IMG/VR virus record: IMGVR_UViG_3300042556_003181
Span: 1-29,328 of that record
Strand: one strand, 5' to 3'
From: a virus
DNA: 29,328 nucleotides
Position 1 is the stretch's first letter; each line of letters begins with the position of its first letter. The translations under genes and the position numbers were made by a program. Under the pieces are notes generated by a model, which saw only the letters and a list, made by a program, of their open reading frames with translations, did no database searches and was not told where the DNA came from. Shown here one piece after another: positions 1-27,823 of this stretch.

Positions 1-1771
1 CATCTTCCTCGCAGCGGCCCTCGGCGCGCTCGGCCCACGGCTCCATGAAGAGACGGATCGACTCGACGGCCATCTGTCCGCACCACCGGACAAGAATGCT
101 GAAGGCCTTGTCGATGTTTTCAGAATACTCGGACTCGCAGGTCGGGCAGCCGTCGGTCGGCAGGGCATTCTCTGTCGTGACCCGTCGACTCTGTTTCTTG
201 AGTCCGTCGAGAACATCAAGCTCGGAAGGCGGAATGTCGGCTCCCGCCGAGGCGGCCGTGATCGGGGCAATGATGCGCTTGCAGAGAACTGGCTTGTAGG
301 CACCGCGAATTCCTCGATAGTCGGCCGTGACATAGGCGTCTCCGGCGATCTCCATCAGATTGATGTCTGCATACTGGAAGGACTTGAGATCATGGCCGTC
401 TCCCATGAGGCGGGTCTCAAACTCGCAGAAGATTGGCCTCGTGAAGTCGATCCTCGTGAAGTCGCTGCCCAGTTCAAAAAAGGTGTCTTCTCTCTCGGGC
501 ATGAACGCCTCCCAGACATGGTTGTGGCTTCCGTCAGACAGAGCCCGGTAGTCGACCGAGGCCGCGAAGGCGCGCCGCTTTCCGTTGATCACCGGGGATG
601 CCCACTGGATCGGGCGGATCCCCGTCCACACTCCAGACCACGCCGGGATCTTCTCAGAGGAGAATTCGCTCAGGGGAGAATAGTCGAGCACAAACGTCTC
701 AGAGTTGAGATTCTGCCCGATCGGCATCGACATGAGGAGGTAGTTCTCAAAGCTGAGACCACAGATCATGGAAGAGTCGTCGTTGAGAAACTGCTTGCTG
801 AAGGCCATCTCGGCGTCTCGATAGTTGATCTGGCTCGTCAGGTTGCTTGAGGCCGCCGCGTCAGAGGCCACGAGACCTCCAGAGCTATACCACCACATCA
901 GGCCCGCCTGAAACACGACACTTCGTCCCGCGACGCATCCGGTGCTCGGGAACAGGATCGACTGCATTCCCTGGGTCGTGGCCCACTGGGCGCGATCTCG
1001 GATGCCAGAGAGCACGATCTCGCTCCTCTCGTCGGTGAACACCACGACGACCTCGACTCGCTCGTCTCCGATGAAGCTGGTGACCCCGGTGATCTGCTTT
1101 GGGAAAGAAAAATCGCCTCGGCCCTCGCCCTCGACTCGCTCGGTGAACTTGATCGGATCGAACAGATCAGACGCCAGAAGAACATTGCCGCGCGCGACCC
1201 AGAGACGTCCCCCAGAGAAGGTCATCCAGGTCCCGGTCGGGGTCTCGAGATTCGGGGCTGCCTCGACGAGGTGCCGCGATTCCTCCCCGTCCCAGTATGC
1301 GGCCGGGGCCACGCCGTCCTGGATCATCAGCACATTGTGCGACGGCACGATCTGCAGCGTCTGGTCGGGCGCGGTCGTGACGGTCTTCTCGGCGACCGCA
1401 AAATGGATCATGTCCACGTCGGCAGAAAACTGCAGATTCTTGAGTCGAAACTCTTCCCAGAATCTTGGCTGCTCGAGAGGAAACGGCGCAAAATAGATCT
1501 TGCCGTCGACGGCAAAGACGAGATGATCGTCGCGGCGTTCGTTCTTGGTGATCTGAAAGTGGGCCATTCCCTGGAGATTTCCCTCGGGCAGCGTGAGCCG
1601 CATGCGAAATCCGGGTCTCGTCTGGATCACGCCGCCGCGGTTCACGACGTTGACTCCGCGTCGATACTGATCCTGCCGAAGAAACCACGGATGCCGGACA
1701 GAGTTCATTCCCGACATCCATCCGGCGTCGACACTCACGAGCCGTCCCTGGGTTATCGCGGGAGATTGCAT
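1..1771 (-). CDS. Tail nozzle / stabilisation-like virion protein (3' end outside window)
   Basis: This is an open frame of at least 590 codons, read from the ATG at 1771 to the left edge without a stop, so the C-terminus is missing. The N-terminus reads MQSPAITQGRLVSVDAG. The body is beta-rich and dense in W, F and Y, with recurring short strands of the type 'LWVARGNVLLASDLFDPIKF' (about residues 190-209) and a 'MWWYSSGGLVASDAA' patch (292-306). That texture and the position directly after the adaptor-like gene fit the podovirus tail nozzle or stabilisation proteins (T7 gp12 or P22 gp10 type, beta-propeller-like). A Cys-rich stretch (GCPTCESE, 541-548) lies near the visible end. The start is 3 bases after the upstream TAG, which suggests translational coupling. 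The family assignment rests on texture and gene order, not on a signature motif. Confidence 0.7.
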   Translation of the reverse strand, partial: MQSPAITQGRLVSVDAGWMSGMNSVRHPWFLRQDQYRRGVNVVNRGGVIQTRPGFRMRLTLPEGNLQGMAHFQITKNERRDDHLVFAVDGKIYFAPFPLEQPRFWEEFRLKNLQFSADVDMIHFAVAEKTVTTAPDQTLQIVPSHNVLMIQDGVAPAAYWDGEESRHLVEAAPNLETPTGTWMTFSGGRLWVARGNVLLASDLFDPIKFTERVEGEGRGDFSFPKQITGVTSFIGDERVEVVVVFTDERSEIVLSGIRDRAQWATTQGMQSILFPSTGCVAGRSVVFQAGLMWWYSSGGLVASDAAASSNLTSQINYRDAEMAFSKQFLNDDSSMICGLSFENYLLMSMPIGQNLNSETFVLDYSPLSEFSSEKIPAWSGVWTGIRPIQWASPVINGKRRAFAASVDYRALSDGSHNHVWEAFMPEREDTFFELGSDFTRIDFTRPIFCEFETRLMGDGHDLKSFQYADINLMEIAGDAYVTADYRGIRGAYKPVLCKRIIAPITAASAGADIPPSELDVLDGLKKQSRRVTTENALPTDGCPTCESEYSENIDKAFSILVRWCGQMAVESIRLFMEPWAERAEGRCEED

Positions 1772-1774
1772 GGC

Positions 1775-4750
1775 CTAGTCCATCCAGTCGTCTGGCCTGG
1801 TCGTCACGTCGGCGTTGATCTGAAATGTCGGGGCGCGTGGTCCGTCGAGCGCGCGGTTTCTCTTGTTGAGGTATTCCACCGCGATCAGGCGATACTGCTC
1901 CGATTCGGCGATGAATTTCTTGAAGAGCAGTTCCTGCGACTGGACCATCATGAGGATCGCCATGCGAGAATCCAGATTGATGAAGTCTCTCTCGGTCAGC
2001 ACGTCGAAGGCCCGGCGGCGATACTTGAGGCGGACAGACGTTGCCGACTTGCTGACTCTGATGCGGCGGTATGCCGGGACCGTCTCGGTGGGATGGATGT
2101 CTCCAAGAAGCGCGATGTTTCCGGTTCTCGACGTGTCCCAGGCATAGAGTCGGATGTATCCGTCGGTGATCGGTTTTTCAATGGAAGAGACGGTCTGAAC
2201 GGACACCGGCGCGCGGGAAACAACGACCCGCTGGGTTCCTGTTCCAGACGACAGAAAGGTGATGCGTCCGGCCGTCGAGGGAGCGGCATTTGCCTGCGCC
2301 TGCGAGGGATACAGCTCGATCTGGTCGTCGTCGATGGACCTGAGATAGTAGGTGGTCGACGGAAGAAGCGGCGACGGAAGCGCCGAGCTCGTCACCGCCG
2401 TGAGAGCGGTTCCAGTGGCAAATCCATGGTCTGAAATGTCGAGCGACGTCGCGGCCGGGGCCGTCATCGAGCGAGAGATCAGCATCTCATGGCTTCCTGA
2501 GCCAACAGTCGTCAGCGGAACAAGCGCGTTCGCGGTCGTGTAGACCTCGATGGTGTCTCCCACCACGTTGACCCGGTAGTCTGTCGCGGTGACAAGAGGA
2601 GCGGGCAGCGTCCCGGTGGTCGTGAAGCGGACAATCGTGAGGTTCTCGAGAAACGCCGTGAAATCGACATCGAGGCTGTTGTCTCGGGGCGACACGGTCA
2701 CTGATCTTGCCCTCGAGAGATACAGCGTCTCGGCGCCGGAAGTCGTGGCCGAGAACCGCCCCGTCACCGTGGGAGGAGCGGCATTTGCGTTGACTGCCGA
2801 GTCATAGATCTCGACAAGTGAGTTGCTGATCTTGCGGACATAGTATAGGGTCGACTGGTCGACCTGCGACGGGGCCGTGCCCGGCAGAATTCCGGGCGTG
2901 TAGAATCGGACGGCATCGCCGGTCGAGAGGGCCGTGGCGTCTACCGACCACTGCGGAAGATAGCCCACCGAAAACGAACGCGAGATGACCACATAGAGCT
3001 GCCCGGTGCCGCCAGAACTGATTGCGACCGGATTCGGGATCGTGTCGTTGAGAGAAAACGTCGTCGAGGTCAGCGGGGCCTCGCCGCGATAGACCGTCTC
3101 GGCCTTGATGGGATCTGGAAGTGTCCCGTTGGAAGTGAAGCGAACCAGGCTCCCGCCCTGTGACGTGAAGGTCACCGTCGGAACCGAGGTGTATCCCGTG
3201 CCGCCCGTGATGACTCGGATCGAGACCACGGCACCGCCCGCGACAATTGCCTCGGCCGTCGCTCCGGTGCCTCCACCTCCCGAGATGGTGATCTTTGGCG
3301 AGACGTTGTAGGCACTTCCGCCGGCCCCGACCGAGACGGCGACAACGGTCTGACTCGAGAGCACGGCAGTTCCGGTCGCTCCCGAGCCGCTGGGGGCACT
3401 GAGGTTGTGCGGACTCGCCGTCGTCACGGTGCTGCTTCCGCCGCCAGCGACGGTTGCCGCGATGAGTTTCACGAGCGAGTTCGTGCCGACTCCAAGCGAG
3501 GTCAGCGCGACCGGATTGGCCCCAGTCGAGGAATCGACCGCGGTGGAATGCAGCGACACGGTCGTCGCGCTCAGGGCCCTGACAAAGTATGGCGTGTTGG
3601 CGATCAGAGGCTGCGGAAGTTCTCCTCCGGAATTTGAGGCCGTCACCTGGTCTCCTGTGACAAAATTGTGCTCCAGCGTGAAGGTCAGCTGGGTCAGCGG
3701 ATACATCGGCTTGAGAATCCGCGCCTCGACAGACGTTCCAGGAGTCGTGGCATTGACCGGATTCGTGGCATTCTCACGATCATTGTCGTCGTTGTAGACG
3801 ATGAAGCGGTCGGCCGCGATCGGGGAGGCCGGATATGTGCGGGCCGCCTCAAACGGCAGCGGGAGAGGCGATCCGGTGAAGGCCACGAGATCTCCCTCCG
3901 AGATGAGGTTGGCTCCCGAGGTCACAAAACAGGTTCTGGCCCGGACGGCCCGGGTCTCTCGCAGCGTGATCGCGGCCGTGGGATCGACGGTCGAAAAAAG
4001 AATGGGTCTCTGATTCGTCTGGGCATCGAGTCGCGTCGCATACAGCAGGACGCGGGTCGAGTCGACGACTCGGATGAAGTAGAACGCCCCGTTGATCAGG
4101 GGCTGGGGAATCGATCCGGAGGCAAGCTGCACCTGCATCTGGGCGGCCGTGGCGAGACCGTGGGCCGTCCCGGAGACCAGCAGACCAGTCGGCGTGGTCT
4201 CGAAGAGACGAAGAAACGGGACAGAGGTCGGGGCGGCCGTGGGAGCTCCCGCGACATTGACTGCAAAGGTCTCGGTCCCGTCGATCCAGTCGCCATTCTC
4301 GAGCTGCTGACGAAGTTCTCGGCCATTCGCGTCGATCCCAAGGACACGCACGACGACGCCGATGTCGGCCTCTGAGTCGCAGCGGGCGATCAGGGGACCG
4401 GGAGTTCCGATGTCCATGAAGGAGGGCACGGTCCCAGAGTCGTCCCATGCCCACGGGACGACGTGATCGTCTGTCAGTCCGTCGCCGTTGAGATGAAAGC
4501 GAAAAAACTCGTCTCGCATGAAGGCCGGAATGCCATTGACGGCAACTGCCAGCGGTGTCTCGACCTCGCGCGGAAGAGTGACGGTCTGACCGTCAGAGAG
4601 GGTCATGATGTCAAGGGCCCCGATGTTCGCGGCCCAGTCGCCCTCGTCCTGAAGGGCTCGAACTGCCTCGGAGATGCGACGAAGGGCCTTCTGCCGGTCG
4701 CACCGACCGAGGACCTCGATCACCTGGTCAATGATCTCCGAGACAAACAT
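1775..4750 (-). CDS. Tail adaptor-like protein with large tandem beta-repeat insert
   Basis: The product is 991 aa from the ATG at 4750. An in-frame upstream extension to 4843 is possible but would overlap the preceding gene, so I rejected it. The N-terminus is helical (MFVSEIIDQVIEVLGRCDRQ, then SEAVRALQDEGDW, about residues 1-40). It is followed by a compact segment with VTLPREVETPLAVAVNG near 57-73. The last 65 residues are again helical (LDSRMAILMMVQSQELLFKK onward). Between them, about residues 180-845, sit roughly seven degenerate copies of a beta module built around 'LPxPLxxxTxYYVR', a variable strand ending in 'LYxT', and 'GTGxxxLxxSR'. One copy is interrupted by a glycine-rich piece with GYTSVPTVTF. 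Helical ends plus a position just before a nozzle-like gene suggest a T7 gp11-type adaptor in which the repeats are an insertion. This is inference. A fibre-like structural protein is the alternative. Confidence 0.65.
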   Translation of the reverse strand: MFVSEIIDQVIEVLGRCDRQKALRRISEAVRALQDEGDWAANIGALDIMTLSDGQTVTLPREVETPLAVAVNGIPAFMRDEFFRFHLNGDGLTDDHVVPWAWDDSGTVPSFMDIGTPGPLIARCDSEADIGVVVRVLGIDANGRELRQQLENGDWIDGTETFAVNVAGAPTAAPTSVPFLRLFETTPTGLLVSGTAHGLATAAQMQVQLASGSIPQPLINGAFYFIRVVDSTRVLLYATRLDAQTNQRPILFSTVDPTAAITLRETRAVRARTCFVTSGANLISEGDLVAFTGSPLPLPFEAARTYPASPIAADRFIVYNDDNDRENATNPVNATTPGTSVEARILKPMYPLTQLTFTLEHNFVTGDQVTASNSGGELPQPLIANTPYFVRALSATTVSLHSTAVDSSTGANPVALTSLGVGTNSLVKLIAATVAGGGSSTVTTASPHNLSAPSGSGATGTAVLSSQTVVAVSVGAGGSAYNVSPKITISGGGGTGATAEAIVAGGAVVSIRVITGGTGYTSVPTVTFTSQGGSLVRFTSNGTLPDPIKAETVYRGEAPLTSTTFSLNDTIPNPVAISSGGTGQLYVVISRSFSVGYLPQWSVDATALSTGDAVRFYTPGILPGTAPSQVDQSTLYYVRKISNSLVEIYDSAVNANAAPPTVTGRFSATTSGAETLYLSRARSVTVSPRDNSLDVDFTAFLENLTIVRFTTTGTLPAPLVTATDYRVNVVGDTIEVYTTANALVPLTTVGSGSHEMLISRSMTAPAATSLDISDHGFATGTALTAVTSSALPSPLLPSTTYYLRSIDDDQIELYPSQAQANAAPSTAGRITFLSSGTGTQRVVVSRAPVSVQTVSSIEKPITDGYIRLYAWDTSRTGNIALLGDIHPTETVPAYRRIRVSKSATSVRLKYRRRAFDVLTERDFINLDSRMAILMMVQSQELLFKKFIAESEQYRLIAVEYLNKRNRALDGPRAPTFQINADVTTRPDDWMD

Positions 4751-5866: not shown

Positions 5867-6313
5867 TCACAGGATGTCGAGATCCCTCCCGAATGCCTTG
5901 CCTGAGGGATACGTGGGCTTGCAGTGGGGCCACGTGATCTTCCAGCGCTTTCCATCCTTCGACAGAATTCCGACCTTGCCAGAGCCGCGGCGGCGTCGCA
6001 CCCGGGAGCCCTCCATCGGCTCTCTCACGGGCGCGGGCTCGTCAAATTTTTTGGAATCTGCCGCGACCGGCGTCTCGCCCCTGCCGAGCTCCCGGTAGCC
6101 GGTGATCCGAACCAGGCGCTTGAGCTTGTTGTCCCAGACCGTGAAGTCCTGGCGCTCGACCGTGCCGGCACGGATGCCGGGGGCGAGAAGCGAGGCCACT
6201 CTCTCGGGACTGCACTCGAGCTGTTCGGCCACGTCGTCGCGGCTCGACCAGCCCCTCGGCCATGCATAGGCCGCGGCGTTTTGTTTTTCCAGTATGGATT
6301 TCCAGTTAGGCAT
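5867..6313 (-). CDS. Possible winged-helix DNA-binding protein
   Basis: This is a 148-aa protein. The N-terminal half contains GWSSRDDVAEQLECSPERVA, a good helix-turn-helix pattern, followed by SLLAPGIRAGTVERQDFTVWD and RLVRITGYREL, which read as a wing of beta strands (about residues 21-75). A proline-rich linker leads to a very basic patch (RVRRRRGSGK, about 104-113) and an aromatic C-terminus (KRWKITWPHCKPTYPSGK). The whole fits a small sequence-specific DNA-binding protein or phage regulator, but I do not recognise a named family. ATG at 6313 overlaps the TAA of the metallophosphoesterase gene by 8 bases. AAAGGAAA about 10 bases upstream can serve as its ribosome binding site. Confidence 0.6.
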   Translation of the reverse strand: MPNWKSILEKQNAAAYAWPRGWSSRDDVAEQLECSPERVASLLAPGIRAGTVERQDFTVWDNKLKRLVRITGYRELGRGETPVAADSKKFDEPAPVREPMEGSRVRRRRGSGKVGILSKDGKRWKITWPHCKPTYPSGKAFGRDLDIL

Positions 6314-7316
6314 CTGTGCGGTTTCCTTTCAGTAGCATGCCGGCATAGCTCTCTCCGGCGTTGATGGTGACGTTGAACATGCTGAAGTTGCCCGTGGCCC
6401 GGGAGATGAAGCGGACCAGATAGCCGTGGGTCCATTCGGTCGGCCGGGTGTTGGCGTAGAGAGGCTGGCGCTTGCACAGACAGCCCGGATTCCAGGCACT
6501 GACCAGGCCGATCCCCGGGATGTGCTTGGGCTTGAAACTGGCCCGGTGCGTGTCGAAGTAGCAGATGTTGCCGCCGGCCTTGGCCAGGGCCACGTCGGCC
6601 GCGTCCTTCGAGTTGCTGATCTTGTGCACGTAGAACATCTTGTCGAGCTTCACCCAGCCCGGCGTGTCGCAGCCCTCGTGGAGGTGGCCCTGCCGGTAGT
6701 AGCGGATGCCGCGCTCCCTGAGGCGCAGGACGTGCTCGGCGCAGAAGGTCTTGCGCAGCAGCTCGACGTCCTTGTGGTGGGCGAGTCGCTGCGTGAGGGC
6801 CCAGCGCTCGACGCGCCACTCATGGTTGCCCTCGAGATAGTGGATGTCCGGGCAGGAGCTGGATTCCATGACCGCGTCGAGCAGCTTGTTGGCGACTGCC
6901 ATGTCGTCCTCGTAGCTGTCGTCGGCCTCGGACACGTAGCCCAGGACATGGTGCTCGGCCAGGAATCCGCCGCAGTTGATGAAGTCGCCCCCGATGAAGA
7001 TCCGGTCGGGGCGCAGGATCTTGAGATCACCGAGCAGCGCCGAGAAGGCCGCGGGGTCGACCTGGTTGCCATGCACGTCGGAGAAGATGACCTCGACGAT
7101 GTCGCCCTTGCCGGCCCTGGGGCTCGAGGGCCTCGGCACCTGGATGGCCTTGCGGCCAGCGGTGCGGGCACGTTCTAGAGTCTTGACCGTCTCGGCGTGG
7201 GCCTTCCGCTCGGCCTCGAGCTGGGCCTGGGTCTCGGCCAGCCTGGTCTGGTGATCCGCGGCATGGGCCGCCTGCGCGACCTTGCCCCAGTTGGTGTCAG
7301 TGGTTTCTTTTTTCAT
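6306..7316 (-). CDS. Calcineurin-like metallophosphoesterase with N-terminal coiled coil
   Basis: This 336-aa protein has metallophosphoesterase motifs in the expected order: D80-x-H82 in FSDVHGN, GGD at 109-111, GNHE at 163-166, and histidines at about 231 (FYVHKISNS) and 257 (FDTHRASF). These residues bind two metal ions in this superfamily, which cleaves phosphomono- or phosphodiesters. Residues about 15-50 form a charged heptad-like helix (RLAETQAQLEAERKAHAETV), a likely oligomerisation coiled coil, with a basic linker after it. A strong AGGAGG lies 8 bases before the ATG, across the endolysin stop codon. The target (nucleic acid, nucleotide or cell-wall phosphate) is not deducible. Such enzymes are common in phages but are usually placed with nucleotide metabolism, not beside lysis genes. 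Confidence 0.85.
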   Translation of the reverse strand: MKKETTDTNWGKVAQAAHAADHQTRLAETQAQLEAERKAHAETVKTLERARTAGRKAIQVPRPSSPRAGKGDIVEVIFSDVHGNQVDPAAFSALLGDLKILRPDRIFIGGDFINCGGFLAEHHVLGYVSEADDSYEDDMAVANKLLDAVMESSSCPDIHYLEGNHEWRVERWALTQRLAHHKDVELLRKTFCAEHVLRLRERGIRYYRQGHLHEGCDTPGWVKLDKMFYVHKISNSKDAADVALAKAGGNICYFDTHRASFKPKHIPGIGLVSAWNPGCLCKRQPLYANTRPTEWTHGYLVRFISRATGNFSMFNVTINAGESYAGMLLKGNRTDA

Positions 7317-11971: not shown

Positions 11972-12300
11972 TTCTTGTCGAGACTGTGGTTGATGTCACG
12001 AAGACTGCCGTCGATCGACTTGAGAGACGCGTCAAGATGCTGCCAGTGCCTCTCACGAGAATTGCGCTCCTCGCGAAGCTCAACAAGAAATGTATCGCGG
12101 GCACGATCAAGGTGAGCAATGAACGCCGGGGCGACCTTGACCAGCAGCATGATGGCCGCAAAGGCGACGAGCCCAAAGCTGCCCATTTCGGCCACCGTGC
12201 GGAGCCATCCAAAGGACTCCATGACCGGCGCGGCGGTGGCGAAGACGCCGAAGGTTCCGGCAGTCAGCATGGCGGCGGATGCTTTGAGTTCGAAGATCAT
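11968..12300 (-). CDS. Membrane protein with C-terminal coiled coil (holin- or i-spanin-like)
   Basis: This is a 110-aa protein. A first hydrophobic stretch (about 8-25, ASAAMLTAGTFGVFATAA) and a second, stronger one (about 38-60, EMGSFGLVAFAAIMLLVKVA) suggest one or two membrane spans. The C-terminal 50 residues are charged and heptad-like (RARDTFLVELREERNSRERH, then LDASLKSIDGSLRDINHSLD). It lies between tail spike 2 and an appendage gene, about 4 kb from the lysis cassette. The pattern fits an inner-membrane spanin or a holin-type accessory and could be the missing partner of the lipoprotein at 7907-8071, though distance makes that uncertain. Confidence 0.6.
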   Translation of the reverse strand: MIFELKASAAMLTAGTFGVFATAAPVMESFGWLRTVAEMGSFGLVAFAAIMLLVKVAPAFIAHLDRARDTFLVELREERNSRERHWQHLDASLKSIDGSLRDINHSLDKK

Positions 12301-12340
12301 GGCGCTTGCGGGCGGTTGGAGATTAGAGGGGCATTAAATG
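12301..12340 (-). other. Spacer with motif shared with 14192-14266
   Basis: This 40-base spacer contains AATGCCCCTC followed by TAATCTCCAAC on the minus strand. The spacer before tail spike 2 contains AATGCCCCTC followed by GAAAGTCCAAC. The two share about three quarters of their positions over some 30 bases. Here the ATG is followed by a stop after two further codons. It looks like the broken remnant of the same small reading frame, left at a cassette junction. Confidence 0.4.
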
Positions 12341-14185
12341 CTATGCGGCTACATTGGCCATTGCTTTGAACACATAAACGCCAGTCGTTCCACTTGTTGT
12401 GCATACCCATGCCGGTGTTCCTGCTGCTGAAGGTAACGTGTTCCAAATAATATCTCCCCGATTGTAGTTGCCGGTCGCCGGAACTGAGGAAAGGTATTCT
12501 GTTCGACGCATAATTGAATTTGCGCCTAACTTTATGTGGGGAATGTTGAAACCATCAAATATGTTGTCAAAGCTATAAGTGTAATCGACGCCGGTATTCT
12601 CAACGATTGCATACTCCCCAAAACCAGCACTGTCTGATTGTCTAAAATAGTTGTTCTTAAAATAATTTCTCGCCGAGGATGATCCGTAAATGTTCACAAC
12701 GACAAACGAATTTCCGCTTTTTGCACAATCAATGAAACTATTATTAACAACTTCTGTGTCTACGCAGTCGCTTATCACAAGCGCGTTTGTGTTGTAGTTT
12801 ACGCACTTATTGTCAGCTATTTTTGTTTGGACGCATCTTACCAAGTCAATTCCGATTCCGGTTGCCACGTTCAACGCGCCTCCGTTCAATAAATTATCTA
12901 CAATGTGCAAGCCTTGGCAATCTGCGGCAGATACCAAGGCTCCATCGTTTTGCGTGCCATATGGCAAAGTCCTGTTTCCGGTGACAATTATTCGATAGAC
13001 ATTTTTATTTCCGGAAGACTGGCCATCCATTCTAACCCCTGTCGTAAATCCGCTAAATTCATTATTGTCTATTACAAGGTCACGAGCTTCTTGACCAGAT
13101 GTTGGCCCACCAGAAACTTGAATAGCATGTGTTGTATTGGCCGCTCCGTATTCGTTTGTAAATGTGTTTCCGGTGACTTTTGTGTTTCCGGTGTAATAGC
13201 CAAAATAACAACACGCCGAACTTACTCCTTGAGGCGAATAGAAGTCGTTGGCAAATATCATGCTGTCCCCGCCGCCAGGGCCAGGAAAGTAAAGTCCATA
13301 GGTTGCTCTAATTGTATTATGCTGAATTAGTGACACTGCATATCCAAGATATTCGATCCCCCTTTGAACATTCCATATTCTGTTTCGGACGATTGCACAG
13401 TGCATCGTGTAATCAGACTTGATCGCGGCAACTGCCAGATTGTTGCCATTGAAGCCAATCCCCTCAATTTTAGAATAAAACGGGCCAAGGTCAGCGTCAC
13501 TAACGTCAAATATTAACTCCATCATTGATGCAACGGCGGTTGTCGCCTTCAATGTTGGCATTCCAAATCCAACAATAGTTGCGTTGGTTAAATCTAAAAA
13601 GTGAACATCCGTTGACGGGGATGGAGGAATTGGCGCGGCGTCCCGCGTTATTTTAACAACGATAGTGTCTGATATTAGGTATGGACCCGGACCAATAATA
13701 TAGACCATTTTGCCAGTTTTCATTGCCTCATTAACCGCCGATTGAATTGCGGCCCAGTCAATTTCCTGAGTCAGTGATGTTGCAAACGGATATACAGCTT
13801 GAGCCGCGGCAAGGGTCGGATATACCGACGAAAGCGGGTGTGGATTACCGTCTCCAATGGCGCCGAAGTCTTTGACGTTGACCATGTCCGCAAAACGATC
13901 TTGGACGCTGCGGGCGGTGGTCGATCCGGTGGCAATGACGGGCGCGAGGGTCGGATTCGGATATGCTCCGGCGAGTGCTCCTCCGGCGGCCGCCCCGACA
14001 GAGACCTTGGTCGCGAGACCGGCCGTGAGCTCTGCGGCAGTGGCCGATGGAAACCCGCCGGCGGTCGAGCCGTCATGCACGACAACCGTCTTCTTGTCGG
14101 TGTCGACGGTGACCTCGGCCGGTGCCCCGATGAAGGGAACGTGCTGGGCCGTCGTTCCGCGTCTGAGCTGTAGTTGACTCGCCAT
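12341..14185 (-). CDS. Tail spike 2: anchor domain plus right-handed beta-helix body
   Basis: This is a 614-aa protein. The first 45 residues (LQLRRGTTAQHVPFIGAPAE, then VTVDTDKKTVVVHDG) are the hyaluronidase/tropism-determinant type N-terminal module, shared almost word for word with tail spike 1. VNVKDFGAIGDG (102-113) is the signature opening of a pectate-lyase-like beta-helix. The body carries many short parallel-strand repeats rich in N and V (for example DNNEFSGFTTGVRMDG, VTGNRTLPYG, ADNKCVNYNTNALVISD) out to about 560. A C-terminal PAWVCTTSGTTGVYVF closes it. Such spikes bind and often cut host surface glycans. The segment after residue 113 is AT-rich: a 60-base sample at 12661 is 24/60 GC, against 39/60 at 14041 in the anchor. 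This implies recent exchange. Confidence 0.85.
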   Translation of the reverse strand: MASQLQLRRGTTAQHVPFIGAPAEVTVDTDKKTVVVHDGSTAGGFPSATAAELTAGLATKVSVGAAAGGALAGAYPNPTLAPVIATGSTTARSVQDRFADMVNVKDFGAIGDGNPHPLSSVYPTLAAAQAVYPFATSLTQEIDWAAIQSAVNEAMKTGKMVYIIGPGPYLISDTIVVKITRDAAPIPPSPSTDVHFLDLTNATIVGFGMPTLKATTAVASMMELIFDVSDADLGPFYSKIEGIGFNGNNLAVAAIKSDYTMHCAIVRNRIWNVQRGIEYLGYAVSLIQHNTIRATYGLYFPGPGGGDSMIFANDFYSPQGVSSACCYFGYYTGNTKVTGNTFTNEYGAANTTHAIQVSGGPTSGQEARDLVIDNNEFSGFTTGVRMDGQSSGNKNVYRIIVTGNRTLPYGTQNDGALVSAADCQGLHIVDNLLNGGALNVATGIGIDLVRCVQTKIADNKCVNYNTNALVISDCVDTEVVNNSFIDCAKSGNSFVVVNIYGSSSARNYFKNNYFRQSDSAGFGEYAIVENTGVDYTYSFDNIFDGFNIPHIKLGANSIMRRTEYLSSVPATGNYNRGDIIWNTLPSAAGTPAWVCTTSGTTGVYVFKAMANVAA

Positions 14186-14191
14186 GGGTGT

Positions 14192-14266
14192 CTATTGTTG
14201 GTTCAAATTCTGAAAATGCGAATTATGGATGTCGCCGTCGCGGACTGTTGGACTTTCGAGGGGCAT
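14192..14266 (-). CDS. Possible 24-aa leader-type peptide before tail spike 2
   Basis: A tiny frame (MPLESPTVRDGDIHNSHFQN plus 4 residues) ends 6 bases before the tail spike 2 start. No good ribosome binding site precedes it. The VRDGD..I.NSHFQNLN pattern resembles the start of small proteins found beside phage tail fibres, so it may be a real short peptide or the truncated head of a lost gene. The related but broken sequence at 12301-12340 supports a lost-gene reading. Confidence 0.3.
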   Translation of the reverse strand: MPLESPTVRDGDIHNSHFQNLNQQ

Positions 14267-14279
14267 TATTTAATAAAAT

Positions 14280-14459
14280 TCAGGTCGATGGCGCGTCTGA
14301 TGCGCTATAAAATCCGACATCTGTTTTATTTTCTTGCTGTTTAGCCATCGCTTCCATCTGTTCAGCCATTTTGTCGCGTATTGTTTCAAGGCGCTTTACC
14401 TCCATGATTAAATCTCCCATTTGAAGAGAGATGCGTTGTTCAAAACTTAATGGATTCAT
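14280..14459 (-). CDS. Small coiled-coil protein after tail spike 1
   Basis: This is a 59-aa protein starting at ATG 14459 (MNPLSFEQRISLQMGDLIME). An in-frame TTG three codons upstream is less likely. A continuous heptad-like helix covers about residues 5-45 (EVKRLETIRDKMAEQMEAMA), followed by a short polar tail. It begins 1 base after the tail spike 1 stop. Small helical proteins directly after a tail fibre or spike gene are often fibre chaperones or fibre-base oligomerisation factors. No specific family is recognised. The region is AT-rich like the spike body, so it may have come in with that segment. Confidence 0.6.
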   Translation of the reverse strand: MNPLSFEQRISLQMGDLIMEVKRLETIRDKMAEQMEAMAKQQENKTDVGFYSASDAPST

Positions 14460-14460
14460 T

Positions 14461-16281
14461 TTAAGCAATCGTTGCCAGTTTCCGCTCTACGCCTGCGCTG
14501 TCTTTAACTGTTATGTAGCCATTAACCGCTGCGTCTGCGCTGCCGGTGTGCCCGCCAAGCAACACGCGTCCCGCTCCTTTCGGAATAAGAGCAATATCTA
14601 TATTTGCAGCGCCTCCTGCGGCATATAAGCGCGGTTGGTTAAAGGCGTCTGATCTTACTCCAAGCCACGACGTTCCCGTAGACAGTTGATCTATTTCAAA
14701 CTGCACAGCCGAATACGAATGGGAATTAAATCTATAAATTCCGCTTCCTTTGGTAGATATTCTAAAGGCAATGTTTGTGTCTGTTCCCGCGGTAGTCAGT
14801 GATGCGGACTGACCAGACGATCCGGCAGACATAATGAATCCGTTGCAAGCACTTCCATCCAACGATTCGGTTGTTAATACCGCCGCTGAACCCTCTCCTC
14901 CGATGTTTACGTCTCCATCAGCTTGAAAGGCAATTTGCTTCCGCTTGCCGTTCAATACATCATATCCTGTTCCTATATACAGCGGGTATTGTCGGCCCAC
15001 ACCGCCAGCAGATTGAATGTGAAAATACCCATTACCGTATGCACCAATAGTAATGTTTTCCTCAAAGCCCGCGCCAGAAATTCGATGAACCCGAAACGCG
15101 GACATAATGTCGTCTACAGAAGTCCAAAACTCATAAGAAACATTGGTCTGCGTTCCAGCAGACGAGCCAAGGGTCAAAGAATTTGGCGCTCCAGAAGCTG
15201 ATGACACATCATAAACAACGCCGTTAATTTTTATTTTATACTCTGTGTTGGGCATCACCACAAACGGATCTCCAGCAATGCGTGTGACCGTTGTGCCGGA
15301 TGTGTTGCATGTTCCCTCGCCAAGCGTCGGCGCAAAAACAAATGTTTCTGGCCCTGCGGCAGCAAATGAAACCGCTGACCCATCCAAATTTGTCACAGTT
15401 GCCGTGGTTGCATTGACGACGCTGGCGCACAGGTATCTTCCCTGACCTATATACATTCTTTTTCCGACCAGCTTTGCAAAAAAGTCAGCGCCGGAAGTTT
15501 TTGTTACCGTGTTTCCACCAATAGCCAGCGTGCATGCGCCAGCAACGGCGGTGGGCTGGATGGCAAATTCTGTAGTTGAGGGAAATATGCTCGGCATAAC
15601 CGTTGTCCAGCCTGCGTATCCGTCGCTAAAAAACACGTTTCCGTTTACTCCGTCTTTTGGGTCGCCGCCGCCGATTTGCAATCCAATGGGGCCAGCGGAA
15701 TTGCGCCCAAAGCGGTAAGTGCTGCCATACTGAAGCGGATCGCCTACGCCGAAAGACCATGCTCCTGTGGCGGGATCAATTCTTTGAATGAGCGCACCAA
15801 CAAGATCAGATCCAGTTGTTGTAGCGCCAGAAAACAAAAATTGTCGGCCTGTCGCAGTAACGCTTGCAGAAAGTAAATAGGTTCCTGATGGAACCGCGAT
15901 TAGAGCGCCAGCCGGAGCCGCAGCATGCGCGGCCGCAAAAGCTGGCGCATCATTTGCTACCCCATCGCCAACGGCACCAAAGTCTTTTACGTTGACCGTG
16001 CCGTTGATCGTGTTCAGCCCCTTAGCCAGCTCGGCGCCGGTGGCGCGTTTGGTGATGCCGCCTTGCTGAATGATTAGCTCGTCGGCGGCGTTGACGGTTG
16101 TGGCGTCGGCCAGGAGCGGGATCGCGACATTGAGAGGAGCAATCTCCTTGCCGCCCATCGTGGTGCCGTCATGGACCCTGAGAGAATCACGATCGGTGTC
16201 GACCGAGACCTCGGCAACGGCCCCGGTGAAGGTGTCGTTCTGTGCGGTCGTGCCGCGCCTGAGCTGTAGAACCTGTGCCAT
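14461..16281 (-). CDS. Tail spike 1: anchor domain plus pectate-lyase-like body and fibre-type C-terminus
   Basis: This is a 606-aa protein. The anchor (VLQLRRGTTAQNDTFTGAVA, then EVSVDTDRDSLRVHDG) matches tail spike 2. VNVKDFGAVGDG (96-107) and the following NDAPAFAAAHAAAPAGALI mark the opening of a beta-helix enzyme-like domain. The middle is beta-rich and Thr/Gly/Ser-rich. The C-terminus (NIDIALIPKGAGRVLLGGH, then GYITVKDSAGVERKLATIA) is the conserved end seen in many phage fibres, likely the trimerisation region. GGAGG at 16294-16298 precedes the ATG with a long 12-base spacing. GC content drops sharply after residue 107: a 60-base sample at 16081 is 41/60 GC, one at 15781 is 25/60. Role: host attachment, possibly glycan cleavage. 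No catalytic residues can be assigned. Confidence 0.85.
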   Translation of the reverse strand: MAQVLQLRRGTTAQNDTFTGAVAEVSVDTDRDSLRVHDGTTMGGKEIAPLNVAIPLLADATTVNAADELIIQQGGITKRATGAELAKGLNTINGTVNVKDFGAVGDGVANDAPAFAAAHAAAPAGALIAVPSGTYLLSASVTATGRQFLFSGATTTGSDLVGALIQRIDPATGAWSFGVGDPLQYGSTYRFGRNSAGPIGLQIGGGDPKDGVNGNVFFSDGYAGWTTVMPSIFPSTTEFAIQPTAVAGACTLAIGGNTVTKTSGADFFAKLVGKRMYIGQGRYLCASVVNATTATVTNLDGSAVSFAAAGPETFVFAPTLGEGTCNTSGTTVTRIAGDPFVVMPNTEYKIKINGVVYDVSSASGAPNSLTLGSSAGTQTNVSYEFWTSVDDIMSAFRVHRISGAGFEENITIGAYGNGYFHIQSAGGVGRQYPLYIGTGYDVLNGKRKQIAFQADGDVNIGGEGSAAVLTTESLDGSACNGFIMSAGSSGQSASLTTAGTDTNIAFRISTKGSGIYRFNSHSYSAVQFEIDQLSTGTSWLGVRSDAFNQPRLYAAGGAANIDIALIPKGAGRVLLGGHTGSADAAVNGYITVKDSAGVERKLATIA

Positions 16282-18098: not shown

Positions 18099-18851
18099 CT
18101 ATCCCTGCTGAGAGAGAATGGAAAAGCTTTTTTTCTGCGAAGAAACCAGGCGCCGCCTCACCCAGTCGCGCGCGGTTGAGTCCTTCACGCCATGGAGCCA
18201 CGCGCAGTCGTCCTTCAGGAGATGCTCAAAGACAAAGGGCTCGACGTTCCGGGCCTGGTAGAGATTTCTGATCTCCGGGATGTCCTCCCACCCGAGCTGA
18301 TGAAACACGTTTGCCAGGTAGGTGTCCCAGGCGACTCTCGTGCTGCACCCCGCGAGGCGAGGATCGAGCGTCACGGTCAGCGGATCAAACAGGGCATTTC
18401 CGTTGATATGACCGACCCGGTGCTCGCCGTTGGGATGCCAACATCCGGCCACCATGGACTCGGCCCGGTCCCACGCGGCAAGCAGTCTCTGCGGCCAGTC
18501 GCGGACAAGCGGAACCGCGTCAGCCTCGGTCGTCAGGACGCAGTCATACTTCCACTCTTTCGACCGATGCATTGCCGCCACGTGCTGCATCATGTCACAC
18601 CAGACGCCGTTGGGACCAGCTGGAAATCCGGTCTCGTGACGCCTTGACCGATACGGGCGGACAACTGAAAAAGATCTGCTCAGCAGTTCCTCGAGCTCTC
18701 TTGGTCTCGGGCAGTCCCTGCGGTAGACGAGCATGGCGTCGACGTCCTGATACGGGGTTCCGTCGGTGATCTCGGCGTGGAGCCGTGCCACCTCGGCCGC
18801 CATGTCAACGTCGCCGTGCCAGACCTGGAGGACATAGAGAAGGCGGCTCAT
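18099..18851 (-). CDS. GT-A-like glycosyltransferase 3
   Basis: This is a 250-aa protein. The opening strand MSRLLYVLQVWHGDVDMAAE, then DVDAMLVYRRDCPRPRE, and the acidic motif E109-A110-D111 in CVLTTEADAVPLVRDW fit a GT-A fold in which E-x-D replaces the usual D-x-D metal/nucleotide-sugar site. GHINGNALFDP (147-157) and AWDTYLANVF (174-183) look like acceptor-site elements. These enzymes transfer a sugar from a nucleotide donor. It overlaps the upstream gene in the ATGA arrangement and ends 163 bases before the capsid ATG. Donor and acceptor are unknown. Its place in a four-gene cassette beside the capsid gene suggests a virion or host-surface target. Confidence 0.75.
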   Translation of the reverse strand: MSRLLYVLQVWHGDVDMAAEVARLHAEITDGTPYQDVDAMLVYRRDCPRPRELEELLSRSFSVVRPYRSRRHETGFPAGPNGVWCDMMQHVAAMHRSKEWKYDCVLTTEADAVPLVRDWPQRLLAAWDRAESMVAGCWHPNGEHRVGHINGNALFDPLTVTLDPRLAGCSTRVAWDTYLANVFHQLGWEDIPEIRNLYQARNVEPFVFEHLLKDDCAWLHGVKDSTARDWVRRRLVSSQKKSFSILSQQG

Positions 18852-19540
18852 TTCAGTGTCTCCTCGAGTTCGGCCCTCGCCGCGTCGATTCCTCCCCAGC
18901 TCCAGAACTGGCGGGCATGGACCTGTCCCTGCTCCGGAAGACGCCAGACAAACCGGTCGTGAAAATACTTCCAGGCGACGGCTCCGAGCACGTTGAACTC
19001 GCTAAAACTGCGGTGGGGCCTGGAAATGACATACTCGTCGAACGGCGTCCCGTGGATCTGCTCGATCAGCCGTCGCGTCTCGCCATAGAGCCAGCTGGGA
19101 TACATGAACGGGTGGCGGCGCATGAACTCATGTTCCGGAGTCCATCCCAAAATCTCGGCCACGACCGGCTGCCACGGACTGCCCGTCTTTCCATAGGACT
19201 CGTGACACAGGATGACCCGGCCGTCTTCCATGAAGTCCTCGGGCGACGTCTCTCTGGTCAGCATGACGTCTGAATCCATGTGCATGATCAGATCTGCGTC
19301 CGTGAACGTGTCGGCCAGCATCTTTGTGATCTGCTGCCCGATGTAGTCATCATGATAGCGGGGACATTCATGGATGATCTCCTCGGTCAGGTGTCGGAGA
19401 GGACCAGAGTCTCCCTCTGGCACCACGATGTGCACTCTTCGAAATCCCCTGGCGTGACGTCTGATCTGGTCGAGGCAGTGCCACAGCCAGCAGAAGTCGC
19501 CAGGATAGGTCCTGATCAGGATGTCGGCGACGGGATGCAT
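18848..19540 (-). CDS. GT-A-like glycosyltransferase 2
   Basis: This is a 230-aa protein. It starts with ADILIRTYPGDFCWLWHCLD and a helical region. D89-S90-D91 in LIMHMDSDVMLTRE is a clean D-x-D site. The later WLYGETRRLIEQIHG and SRPHRSFSEFNVLGAVAWKY (about 193-212) resemble the acceptor-side helices of DUF6492-like glycosyltransferases. The donor is unknown. The gene overlaps the methyltransferase stop by 25 bases and the next gene's start by 4 bases, so it belongs tightly to this cassette. No signal or membrane segment is visible, so it acts in the cytoplasm. Confidence 0.8.
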   Translation of the reverse strand: MHPVADILIRTYPGDFCWLWHCLDQIRRHARGFRRVHIVVPEGDSGPLRHLTEEIIHECPRYHDDYIGQQITKMLADTFTDADLIMHMDSDVMLTRETSPEDFMEDGRVILCHESYGKTGSPWQPVVAEILGWTPEHEFMRRHPFMYPSWLYGETRRLIEQIHGTPFDEYVISRPHRSFSEFNVLGAVAWKYFHDRFVWRLPEQGQVHARQFWSWGGIDAARAELEETLK

Positions 19541-22285: not shown

Positions 22286-22290
22286 AATCT

Positions 22291-22464
22291 TTATTTCTTT
22301 TTGGCCGTCCTGGCCGAGTCACGAAAATCCTTGGCAGAGGGAGCATTTTTTGATCCCGGCTTTCTCATCCGCTCGCCAGAGCCCGCCTTGATCCGGCGGC
22401 GCTTGGCATGGATGTTTGCGTAGAGGCCGGCGGCGGCGCTCTTTACCTTGTCTGCGTCCTTCAT
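22291..22464 (-). CDS. Small basic protein, DUF5872-like
   Basis: This is a 57-aa lysine- and arginine-rich protein: KSAAAGLYANIHAKRRRIKA, then GSGERMRKPGSKNAPSAKDF, then DSARTAKKK. The pattern 'K-A-x-x-x-x-I/V-H-A-K-R-x-R-I-x-x-G-S-G-E-x-M-R-K-P-G' is the small family often annotated as DUF5872 in phages. It overlaps the preceding gene in the ATGA arrangement and ends 5 bases before the scaffold start. Basic charge suggests nucleic-acid binding or a packing role in the head, but no function is established. Confidence 0.75.
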   Translation of the reverse strand: MKDADKVKSAAAGLYANIHAKRRRIKAGSGERMRKPGSKNAPSAKDFRDSARTAKKK

Positions 22465-22732: not shown

Positions 22733-25030
22733 TCATCCTCCTGCGGGCGGGGTGGGACGCGCGGGCGACGCGACAGAAGAGACGGCTGACTGGACTCCAC
22801 CTGCGATTCCGGGAGTCGCGGGAATGCCGGTCTCAACGGCCGGCGGCGGGGGACCAGAGACGGCGGTGACCGGGGCGGCACCCGGAGAGGTCGCGGGCGC
22901 GACGGCCGCGGCGGCACGCCCCTCGGTCGTGGGACCCTGGATCAGGGCACGCGCCTCCTCGAGAATTCCAGTGATCTCTGAGAGCATGGCGGGCTTGATT
23001 CCCTTCTGGAGGGCAGACTGGACGTGCTGATCGGCGTGCTGCAGGGCGACCTCGAGCATCTGGGCGCTGGAATCGAGCGGCATCTCGGAAGACAGGAGCG
23101 GGGCGAGTCTGCTCAGCATCGCGTTGAGATGGACCATGTCATCGTCGGTGGTGTCGACTGGCACGGGAGTTCCGTTGAGAAGAGTGGTCAGCTCAATGAG
23201 CTGCTGGCGATGCTGTTTGAGGGCAGACAAGGGACTGAGATCCACGTTGAGCAAACGCTCAGCGGCCGCTCCTCCGAGCTTGGAGGCAATGTCACGGCGC
23301 TTGAGCTCGACCGTGTCGATGGTCGGGTCTGCGGAATAGCGGCTCACGATCATCTCGAGGACACCGGACTGAGACGCGATGGCATCCTCGACGCTCGCAC
23401 GGCTCGACGAGTTGGCAAGAATCGCGATCTGCGAGATCGTCATTCCCTTTTCCAGCATCTCGAGGACTGCCTCGACGGCATCGGTGTCGAGCGACCGTGG
23501 AATCTCGACAAAGAAATACATGGCCGACTCTCCGACAGACTCGAGAGACGTCCACGTCTCTATGTCAAAGATCGGGGTCAGACCGGTCTGTCTTGACTCG
23601 ATCATGACCTGGTTTGAAAACTGGAGAATGTCGGCGCGGCAGATGCGGCGCTGCAGCTGGTCGATGAGGGCAAACATCTGGTCGGCGAAGCGAGACAGCA
23701 TTCCGGCGCGGATCTGCGCGTCGATCGAGGCCGTATAGTTCACCTCTGATGCCGTGCGGCGCTGTCCCTGCTGGTCAAGAATCTGTCCGGGCATGAAGGC
23801 GCCGACGGCAATCTCGGCCTGCATCGTCGCGTGGCGGTCGAGTGCAAAGAACGCCTCCGAGTTGATCTCAAAGGAGACCTTTTCAAGAACCTCGTAGCCC
23901 TCGCCGACGATCGCGAACGGGTGGTTGACGGTGAGACTCGGGGTCTCCACAGAACCGGCGCCGGCTCTGCTCGTGCGACGCAGGACCATCAGGCCAGAGA
24001 GGTGGAGAGCATCCTGGATGAGGTTGCGCGCCTGCTCGACCGAGACGTGCGTGTTGTAGAGTGCACGGCCCGCTCCGCGAGAACCATGGAGCGTGCGGTC
24101 ACCGACCTCGGCAGAGAAGAGACTCAGGCACTGCTCCATCTTGTCGTAGCGGGCTCGGCGGAAGAACAGCGGAACGCCGTCCTCGCGGTCAAAGATGTAG
24201 TGATCGACGCCGCCGGCCGGGTTGGTCGCGAAGATGTGACCCGCCTTGACGACGCGAATCGACGAGGTGAAGCTGCTGGCAAGGTTGTTCTCGCGGATCA
24301 GGTCCTCGTAGACTCGCTCGTTCTCGGTGTTGGCTCGGTCCTCGAACTGCTTGGTCGACGTGTTGAGCTTCTTGACAAGATTCTCGACGCGCCAGCCGGC
24401 AAGAGAGGCGACCTCGGGATCACGGATCGTGTCAACGATGTCGTCGACAAAGAAATCCTCCTTGAGGCCCCAGATCTTCACTCGATTCGATTCCTGGGGA
24501 CAGCCGACATAGAACAGGGCCTCGTCAGACCGATACATCTTCGGCTTCCAGGTGAACTCGTCTTCCCTGCCGACTGCCGCATAGCCGTAGGTCAGGTTCT
24601 CGTCGATGAGCTGAGAGAGAAAATCAGGCCAGCCCGTCCACTTACGAATGCAGTCCGTGATTGCCATTCGGAAAGTATCCTCCAAGGCTTCGGTGCCGGA
24701 AGTTTCGTTCGGAAAGCGGCTGTAGGTCAAGAGGGGGAGCTGGTCGACCACCTGTCGGTATGGAGGAGTCAGGCGCTTGATCAGGGACGACATGAATCCC
24801 GTGGGCCGATTGCTCCGCCAGGATTGCCCCGCGCCTCGCAGCTTGCGCGGATTCCACGGCTGCTCGCCGTTGATCTTGCGAGCGATCGCCGCGTTCTTGT
24901 TGTTGCGCTCCCGGTTGTCCTGCGTGAAGTTTTTGTAGGTCTGATAGGCCTGATCGAAGGTCAGGACTGCCGGAAGCACGGATCCCGTCTGCGGGTCGAC
25001 TATATCGGCTGTTGAGGCGTCGTTTGGCAT
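22733..25030 (-). CDS. Portal protein (podovirus head-tail connector type)
   Basis: This is a 765-aa protein of a size typical for large podovirus portals. An N-terminal helical part (LTFDQAYQTYKNFTQDNRER) is followed by VDQLPLLTYSRFPNETSGTE, and later by ALYNTHVSVEQARNLIQDAL (about 323-342). GQRRTASEVNYTASIDAQIR (422-441) is the 'TAxEV' signature of head-tail connector portals. A long helical crown-like region leads to a Pro/Ala-rich tail (about 699-765), probably flexible. The portal forms the ring through which DNA enters and leaves the capsid. ATG 25030 lies 3 bases after the preceding stop. Confidence 0.87.
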   Translation of the reverse strand: MPNDASTADIVDPQTGSVLPAVLTFDQAYQTYKNFTQDNRERNNKNAAIARKINGEQPWNPRKLRGAGQSWRSNRPTGFMSSLIKRLTPPYRQVVDQLPLLTYSRFPNETSGTEALEDTFRMAITDCIRKWTGWPDFLSQLIDENLTYGYAAVGREDEFTWKPKMYRSDEALFYVGCPQESNRVKIWGLKEDFFVDDIVDTIRDPEVASLAGWRVENLVKKLNTSTKQFEDRANTENERVYEDLIRENNLASSFTSSIRVVKAGHIFATNPAGGVDHYIFDREDGVPLFFRRARYDKMEQCLSLFSAEVGDRTLHGSRGAGRALYNTHVSVEQARNLIQDALHLSGLMVLRRTSRAGAGSVETPSLTVNHPFAIVGEGYEVLEKVSFEINSEAFFALDRHATMQAEIAVGAFMPGQILDQQGQRRTASEVNYTASIDAQIRAGMLSRFADQMFALIDQLQRRICRADILQFSNQVMIESRQTGLTPIFDIETWTSLESVGESAMYFFVEIPRSLDTDAVEAVLEMLEKGMTISQIAILANSSSRASVEDAIASQSGVLEMIVSRYSADPTIDTVELKRRDIASKLGGAAAERLLNVDLSPLSALKQHRQQLIELTTLLNGTPVPVDTTDDDMVHLNAMLSRLAPLLSSEMPLDSSAQMLEVALQHADQHVQSALQKGIKPAMLSEITGILEEARALIQGPTTEGRAAAAVAPATSPGAAPVTAVSGPPPPAVETGIPATPGIAGGVQSAVSSVASPARPTPPAGG

Positions 25031-25882: not shown

Positions 25883-27823
25883 TCAGTCAGTCATGTCGAT
25901 GAAGTCGAGCTGGTCGACGATTCCGTGCTCGACGCGCTCTGGTCTCGGTGCCGGCACGCGCGACTCCTCGACCATGCGTCCGGAGATGCCGCCATTCATG
26001 CGAATCGCGTGAATCGCGACGAGCAGACTGTCGAAGCGATCAGGCGAGACGTCGTTGTGGCGCTTCTTGAATTCCTTCTTCGGCTCGAGTCTGAGGACAC
26101 CGCGGCCGACCTGCATGTAGCGACGAGTGACCGTCTCGCGGCCGAGCTGGTTCCAGTTGATCCCAGGATTGAGCTTGAGGAGATCAGTCTCGATGAACTT
26201 GCGGACACTGAACGCCATCTCGGTCACGACGTCATTGTAGCGCTCGGCGCAGGTCTCTGAGTCGTCGTCAAGAATGCGAGTGTCTGAGGCAGCCCAGCTG
26301 AACATGACACCAAAGACGTCTGGTCCAAACATCGACTTGAGGGCATCATGGACTCCGGTGCCGTTGCCGGTCCGATCGACCGCGAGCCACCTGGGCTTGA
26401 CTCCCATGTCATTGCTCAGGCGGATGATCGCCCTGGTCTGCTCGATCGTGTCTCTCTTGTCGAGACTGATCTGCTGCTCGACCTGGATGACACGCCGCTC
26501 GGACTTGAAGCGCTGGAACGAACCCTGCATGTCTGTCCATCCGATCGCCTGGCCGAATCTTGCGGCCGTGAAGAAGGCAAGGTCATTGCCCTCGAAGGCG
26601 AGGTCGATCCCGGCTGCCATGACTGTCGGTCCCGAGAAGGTGTAGAGACCCTTGGCCCTCTCGAACATCGACTCGTTGACGATGACGACCGAGGCAGACG
26701 ACTCGGGGAACCATCCCCTCGCCATCGTGAAATACTCTGGGTTGTCAGACCCGAGCTTGAGAAGTCGCTCGAATCCCTCCCAGGTCTGCAGGCCAGGATA
26801 GACGACCTTTTTCTCGGTGACGTTCTCGCACTTGGCCCCGTCGAGTCGGATGACGTTGTATCCCCGGCCAGATTCCCAGGTCTCGTCGACGTCGATGTCG
26901 ATCGATGCCCATCCTCTCTTGGGCTCTGCCAGAACTCCGAACTTGCTGTTGCGGTCCTTGGGGTTCGTGGCAGCAAACACCCTGACGTGGCTGTTGTCTG
27001 CTTCTTCAGTCAGGAGCACGTTGTTGACATCCTCCCAAACGCCCTCTGGAATCTCCTCTGCCTCGTCAAGGATCAGCGCGATGCGGCTGAGCTTGCCAAA
27101 CCTCGGATGGGGACTGGGACGAGGGACCGGGTGGAAACCTCGCAGGCGTCCCTTGCCGTCGTCTCCCATCGGGATCGAGGTGAGATGGATTCCCTGCTTG
27201 TCGTCGTTGTTGACCCTGACTGACTCGGCCTTGATCGAGAGATTCGGGACAGGAACGAGGACGTTGGCGAGCAGGTTCTTGATGTGCGCAAAGACGTTGG
27301 TGACCGCGTGCTGCCGGGTGACCGACATGACCTTGATGCAGGTCCACTCGGGATCGCGAAGAAAATCGAGGCCAAAGAACACGGCACCGGAATACGACTT
27401 GGAGAGCGATCCTCCTCCCATGATCAGGTTCTTGGCATGGTCTCTGAGTCCGTTCCACACCAGCTTCGTGCAGTGCGGCTCTGGCGTGAAGAGCTCTGGC
27501 CCCCAGCAGACGATGGCCGCCGCCTGATACTGGTCGAGATCAAGAAGTTTCTGGATGTATCTCCAGATGAGATACTCGCACTCGTGGCTGGCAAGGCGGA
27601 TCTGTTCCTTCGGCGGGTTCTTCACGCAGTAGCGAAGCAGATACTCGGTCGGTCCAAACAGGTCTCCGGTCTTCTGGTGGGCCTCTCTCATCGCATAGGC
27701 ATGCTCGAGATACTGCCGTCCGTCGAGTGCCTGCTCGATCGATGCCGACTCCTCTGGCGTCACCTCGGGGCGCTTCTTCTTTCGCACCCCGGTCTTGGCA
27801 TAGCGGGTGCGGACGACGCTCAT
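25883..27823 (-). CDS. terL: Terminase large subunit
   Basis: This is a 646-aa protein with both terminase engines. The ATPase half has a Walker A-like loop at 136-143 (GGGSLSKS), Walker B at 247-257 (RIALILDEAEE), and the coupling motif ATNP at 285-288. The nuclease half has D407 (AGIDLAFEGND), D483 (AVDRTGNGTG) and D595/D598 (NDVSPDRFDSLL), the expected RNase-H-like triad. It packages phage DNA through the portal and cuts it. The Walker A carries serine where the canonical GxxxxGK[ST] has its second glycine (S141). ATG 27823 overlaps the small terminase stop by 4 bases, which supports coupling. Confidence 0.93.
   Translation of the reverse strand: MSVVRTRYAKTGVRKKKRPEVTPEESASIEQALDGRQYLEHAYAMREAHQKTGDLFGPTEYLLRYCVKNPPKEQIRLASHECEYLIWRYIQKLLDLDQYQAAAIVCWGPELFTPEPHCTKLVWNGLRDHAKNLIMGGGSLSKSYSGAVFFGLDFLRDPEWTCIKVMSVTRQHAVTNVFAHIKNLLANVLVPVPNLSIKAESVRVNNDDKQGIHLTSIPMGDDGKGRLRGFHPVPRPSPHPRFGKLSRIALILDEAEEIPEGVWEDVNNVLLTEEADNSHVRVFAATNPKDRNSKFGVLAEPKRGWASIDIDVDETWESGRGYNVIRLDGAKCENVTEKKVVYPGLQTWEGFERLLKLGSDNPEYFTMARGWFPESSASVVIVNESMFERAKGLYTFSGPTVMAAGIDLAFEGNDLAFFTAARFGQAIGWTDMQGSFQRFKSERRVIQVEQQISLDKRDTIEQTRAIIRLSNDMGVKPRWLAVDRTGNGTGVHDALKSMFGPDVFGVMFSWAASDTRILDDDSETCAERYNDVVTEMAFSVRKFIETDLLKLNPGINWNQLGRETVTRRYMQVGRGVLRLEPKKEFKKRHNDVSPDRFDSLLVAIHAIRMNGGISGRMVEESRVPAPRPERVEHGIVDQLDFIDMTD

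Follow-up and report, generated by a model that had tools for sequence, protein, structure and literature searches.

In the T7 adaptor gp11 a helix bundle is combined with a fibre dock and an embracing helix; between adaptors, sequence homology is lacking (PMC6702177). The SU10 adaptor is organised like T7 gp11, and those of P22 and Sf6 are without the dock (PMC9509320). In T7, KP32 and SU10, the beta domain of the adaptor is the dock of the long tail fibres (PMC6702177, PMC9509320), and phage DEV has, between helices H2 and H3, an inserted domain that points outward (PMC10925440). In the phages used for comparison, adaptors have ~200-250 aa and at most one outward-facing domain of ~100 aa.

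The protein described here has 991 aa (~100 kDa) and is encoded in the window, by which we mean the whole stretch of DNA analysed (29,328 nucleotides of IMG/VR record IMGVR_UViG_3300042556_003181), a 29-kb virus record that also contains genes for a terminase large subunit, a probable portal and fibre/spike genes. It combines an ordinary adaptor fold, an unrecognised sequence family and an extraordinary insertion. With T7 gp11, SU10 gp11 and KP32 it shares the core fold, the order of helices, beta domain and helices, and a likely place between portal and nozzle, whereas those adaptors have 196-250 aa, carry no seven-domain insertion and show no detectable sequence similarity to it. DEV gp83 likewise has an outward beta domain between H2 and H3 (PMC10925440; Z 7.2), but the domain there is a single lectin-like one of 101 aa, whereas here a native beta domain is accompanied by ~670 aa of repeats. 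The best match to the core, a tail protein of Pseudomonas phage Pa223 (9nwi_A; Z 11.0, 175 aligned of 207 aa), is without an insertion. The overall explanation that we consider reasonably likely is an adaptor with an outward array of seven barrels that would act as a built-in collar for glycan adhesion.

The seven-repeat array

The adaptor gene lies on the minus strand, with an ATG at 4750 and a stop at 1777-1775. A sequence-only reading had placed it at 1775-4750, and these coordinates hold; the open frame of 991 codons is on the minus strand, and the plus-strand translation is broken by stops. Full-length homologs of the protein, with 79-99% and 47-53% identity, occur on ~20 IMG/VR contigs. 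The gene is divided as follows.

1775..4750, minus strand: very probable adaptor gene with seven-repeat insertion, 991 aa (open frame and full-length homologs)
4235..4750, minus strand: N-terminal core, aa 1-172, with helices 1-2 and the N-terminal half of the beta (dock) domain (aligns with short homologs)
3953..4204, minus strand: repeat R1, aa 183-266 (profile comparison and repeat HMM)
3704..3952, minus strand: repeat R2, the most degenerate, aa 267-349 (profile comparison and repeat HMM)
3461..3703, minus strand: repeat R3, aa 350-430 (profile comparison)
2978..3460, minus strand: repeat R4, the middle unit with a nested domain, aa 431-591 (profile comparison and repeat HMM)
3152..3397, minus strand: Gly-rich beta domain nested in R4, aa ~452-533 (model and profile matches)
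2711..2977, minus strand: repeat R5, aa 592-680 (profile comparison and repeat HMM)
2468..2710, minus strand: repeat R6, aa 681-761 (profile comparison and repeat HMM)
2213..2467, minus strand: repeat R7, aa 762-846 (profile comparison and repeat HMM)
1778..2203, minus strand: C-terminal core, aa 850-991, with the remainder of the beta domain, helices 3-4 and the C-terminal arm (aligns with short homologs)

The sequence-only reading had seen about seven degenerate beta repeats in roughly 650 residues and had proposed aligning the units with one another; the array measures 664 aa (aa 183-846) and contains exactly seven beta repeats of ~80 aa. Profile-profile comparison relates all of them: each of the 21 repeat pairs scored between 20.7 and 95.6, higher than the best of 126 column-shuffled controls (19.1), and scores of repeats against the non-repeat N- and C-terminal pieces stayed at or below 17.1, under the control maximum. 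The motif LPxPLxxxTxYYVR, also picked out by that reading, is real and recurs in R1 (IPQPLINGAFYFIR), R3 (LPQPLIANTPYFVR), R6 (LPAPLVTATDYRVN) and R7 (LPSPLLPSTTYYLR). A repeat HMM counted seven repeats in each array-bearing relative that is full-length and uninterrupted. In the AlphaFold2 model of the 991-aa protein the repeats are predicted beta domains (pLDDT ~75-93), as the sequence-only reading had supposed, and strands of 16-20 residues cross several repeat borders (260-277, 342-357, 585-603 and 676-695), which in the model suggests stiff junctions between repeats.

Within 50,697 phage records, just one repeat obtained a match, to a cyanophage baseplate wedge protein; R3 and the baseplate wedge initiator of cyanophage Bellamy share ~41% identity across 66 aa. 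PHROG profiles for tail, baseplate and virion proteins also match the nested Gly-rich domain of R4. A match to PHROG 460 ('head closure Hc2') was dropped as a sign of neck function because it covers the Gly-rich motif alone.

Three observations concern the repeats of relatives. The homolog at L019:10001-12861 (contig 3300008111_000139) is split into two frames inside the array, near R2, which may reflect a sequencing error or a truncated adaptor. Between L010 and the window, R7 is just 54% identical and the remainder 75-91%, a difference in sequence that suggests recombination or rapid change of R7. A sister phage has one copy of the repeat in a tail fibre (L076, frame from 12552, E 2e-7; sister contig G001, about 60600-63041).

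The adaptor core and its short relatives

Scans with Pfam, NCBIfam and PHROG left the ends of the protein unnamed, no profile calling them an adaptor, and the core had no homolog among the 50,697 records of cultured phages; a weak match to S-RSM4 (E 0.4) was examined and set aside. The protein's podophage lineage has no cultured relative in the collection searched. In hhalign, the core reached a probability under 2% against adaptor families of the T7 and SU10 type, a test without power because T7 against SU10 itself gives 0.4%. PDB sequence searches with repeat or core profiles returned no convincing match.

Narrow searches, first with the conserved ends and next with an alignment that combined two short forms and two joined ends, revealed short homologs of ~310 aa in which N- and C-terminal halves are directly joined, without repeats and colinear with both ends. 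When the ends of the window's family were joined in silico and compared with the short-form profile, they matched over 286 columns (probability 100, E 2.7e-70). Since these short repeat-free homologs match the joined ends, the comparative evidence is direct that the repeats were inserted. The ten array-bearing proteins sampled group as a single clade (100/100) in a maximum-likelihood tree with short and tandem forms, the deeper order of the tree being unsure owing to long branches elsewhere. It is very likely that the array was gained by insertion, and once. These short IMG/VR adaptors (L114/L131, L132-L150 and L172) are sequence relatives that have the nozzle-like neighbour but not the array, so that natural forms with and without it offer a ready before-and-after comparison. 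In bacterial genomes the array was found in none, and a single short adaptor homolog was present, in a Peribacteraceae MAG contig that is probably a phage contig. This short form (L172:7986-8930, contig binned as Candidatus Peribacteraceae) could be a hint of the host or a binning error.

The long-form model places helices at both ends of the protein (aa 3-13, 19-36, 920-924 and 928-968), as anticipated from the sequence, although these helical ends mostly have pLDDT below 60 and the C-terminal tail (969-991) is of low confidence. The short homolog P0006, to which the window ends are 35% identical, was modelled in place of the joined ends (AlphaFold2, 20-sequence alignment, pLDDT 79). Its order is helix, helix, beta domain, helix, helix, with helices at 5-8 (short), 19-35, 250-264 and 268-289 and strands (43-233) between helices 2 and 3. 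P0006 thus has both a four-helix up-down bundle to which the N- and C-terminal halves contribute, a part modelled at low confidence in the window protein, and a beta (dock) domain that follows helix 2 and precedes helix 3.

Aligned with VIA-align to the PDB (968 chains), P0006 had podophage adaptor chains or tail/connector entries as its best 11 matches, from Pa223, SU10, Moo19, B2, A4, KHP30, N4, VP1 and DEV (Z 11.0-7.2; SU10 7z47_A, Z 10.5), followed by the T4 gp20-gp14-gp13 neck (Z 5.4) and others at 4.2 or below. The rmsd to the adaptors was mostly 7-8 A over ~175 residues. The top three Foldseek matches were SU10 (probability 0.93-0.99), with E 1.4e-3 at probability 0.97-0.99. Hence a homolog tied to the window ends by a match at E 2.7e-70 resembles solved adaptors in structure over its whole chain. 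In the VIA list of the full-length model the repeats dominate and no podophage adaptor is recognised, which is not evidence against an adaptor. The sequence-only reading took the protein for an adaptor into which the repeats were inserted, a view that an unrelated fold of the ends or repeats that are not beta domains would have contradicted; the natural short relatives, the structural match to podophage adaptors and the predicted beta domains bear it out, and we regard it as highly probable that the core is a podophage head-to-tail adaptor.

Compared with distant long forms, the N-terminal core is 58-69% and the C-terminal core 58-62% identical, whereas the repeats are 29-57% identical and so diverge faster than the ends. 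Stronger conservation of the ends fits a partner-bound core with an exposed insert.

Proposed geometry and function of the insertion

Core residues ~172 and ~850 border the array, which lies inside the beta domain and thus between helices 2 and 3. By analogy with the outward domain at this place in DEV and with the fibre docks of T7, KP32 and SU10, the array probably faces outward, and we hold this with good confidence. The two ends of the array would connect back to adjacent strands within a single small domain, a connectivity that excludes a straight open-ended fibre. In fold matches, an alignment of ~70 positions reaches from model residue 179 to 846, and the outermost strands of the array therefore appear to share one barrel. 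We lean towards a closed arch or loop; the pTM of the long model (0.49) leaves the arrangement of the seven domains uncertain among a hairpin, an arch and a closed ring of domains. Of the outward decoration or built-in fibre proposed from the sequence, the outward-facing insertion thus stands, and the open fibre gives way to a probable closed arch; the larger tail collar that was also proposed there is a prediction.

In the mechanism that we propose, the adaptor would form a ring, by analogy usually of twelve, under the portal and would hold the nozzle below, with the beta domain facing outward. One loop of that domain (core aa ~172 to ~850) would have received seven small beta barrels, apparently once, and R4, the middle unit with its extra Gly-rich domain, would come to lie near the tip of the arch. 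Repeated around the ring, the arches would make a built-in collar, and the collar could bind host-surface or matrix glycans weakly and multivalently, adding to the separate tail fibres.

One pointer to such binding is the fold of the repeats. The top 15 VIA rows were E1 enzymes (FCCH barrels; Z 5.9-6.7, rmsd 2.4-2.8 A over 68-73 aa), and residues 425-507 of endosialidase K1F gave Z 5.2; these Z are middling, and the tool cautions that such a level may reflect no more than a shared arrangement. One of the polysialic-acid sites of K1F, a sialic-acid-binding site, lies in this barrel (PMC12632334). The E1 FCCH and K1F barrels resemble the repeats (Z 5-6.7, ~70 aa) below thresholds, and the units here, unlike those barrels, lie seven in tandem inside an adaptor. 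The E1 FCCH profile PF16190 reached at best E 0.52, in two of 16 members, short of its curated cut-off. The repeats also resemble parts of cyanophage baseplate wedge proteins by sequence or fold. We favour glycan adhesion as the predicted function of the array because of the likeness to FCCH and K1F barrels, the likeness to wedge and fibre proteins and the fast divergence of the repeats; the prediction is tentative. Literature searches on FCCH-like domains in phage tails and on duplicated adaptors brought up nothing relevant.

An alternative interpretation is that the array is an enlarged dock that anchors the N-termini of separate tail fibres and does not itself touch the host. T7, KP32 and SU10 use the beta domain to dock their long tail fibres (PMC9509320, PMC6702177), and an Mtd_N-type N-terminus occurs in at least two fibre/spike-like genes of the window, but ~100 aa suffices for docking in T7 and the short homologs, a need far exceeded by seven degenerate domains, and R2 and R5 show little conservation from one clade to another (29-57%), unlike a partner-binding surface; we consider this reading unlikely. 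Slightly less probable again is a mechanical brace, in which the arches pack on each other or on the capsid like a collar and have no binding function. The ring position, the long model strands of 16-20 residues over several repeat borders, with the stiff junctions that they suggest, and the number of seven repeats, fixed in all uninterrupted members, are consistent with it, yet the closest matches of the repeats are baseplate wedge, tail fibre and endosialidase proteins, which act at host-facing places. The ranking that we favour accordingly runs from glycan binding through fibre docking to pure bracing.

A more radical reading, that the protein is a tail fibre or other non-adaptor virion protein whose ends merely resemble an adaptor, could draw on the baseplate, fibre and virion proteins among the PHROG matches of the repeats and on ends that no profile names an adaptor. 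We judge it very improbable: the short homologs consist of the ends alone, the top 11 of 968 aligned chains are podophage adaptors or tail entries, and the place of the gene beside a nozzle-like gene is kept. An adaptor with an array that may bind glycans remains our preferred reading, and the protein suggests that large host-facing modules are not confined to fibres and spikes but can also sit on the neck ring.

Tandem relatives and genomic setting

Three relatives contain two adaptor cores per chain (L157:4995-7289, L170:4995-7925 and L151:4104-5933). The second copy in L170 holds a calcineurin-like phosphoesterase (metallophosphoesterase, PF00149, E 3.2e-9), and that in L157 an insert that looks, by eye, like a beta-sandwich; both inserts lie at a second loop, near strand FIRLY, and not at the loop of the window's array. 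A separate metallophosphoesterase-like gene, of the superfamily that L170 has fused into its adaptor, occurs near the adaptor gene in the window (6306-7316, minus strand, PF00149, E 2e-4).

T7 gp11 meets the six-fold nozzle through subunits that take alternating conformations (PMC6702177), and one idea, by analogy, is that a fused adaptor pair would fix such an alternation covalently. More broadly, and rather doubtfully, the beta domain might be a general docking slot that receives seven glycan-binding barrels, a metallophosphoesterase or a beta-sandwich depending on lineage, with adaptors fused in some so that six chains would build a twelve-fold ring whose symmetry is broken for the six-fold nozzle. 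If this were true, the neck ring would become a receptor-binding and enzymatic organelle. The tandem-duplicated relatives allow a direct test of a single-chain 12-to-6 symmetry switch.

Other genes of the window that bear on the place of the adaptor are these.

2..1771, minus strand: nozzle-like neighbour, truncated at the edge of the window (in a sister contig it has 1342 aa)
22733..25030, minus strand: probable portal (from size and position next to TerL)
25883..27823, minus strand: terminase large subunit (tblastn to annotated terminases of cultured phages)

A large nozzle-like homolog lies near the adaptor gene on nearly all contigs of the family, with short and long forms alike, and from its position it is predicted to be the nozzle. 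Downstream of the nozzle-like gene, L074 (G001, 19401-27656) is an open frame of 2751 codons, a candidate giant ejection protein. The two fibre/spike genes with Mtd_N-type N-termini (window 12001-16000) have a G+C of ~0.49-0.51 against ~0.60 elsewhere, as if recently exchanged. Three to four genes at 18099-20996 on the minus strand of the window are, by eye, sugar- or methyl-transferase-like and lie between the probable scaffold and capsid genes, an unusual place for them in a head operon.
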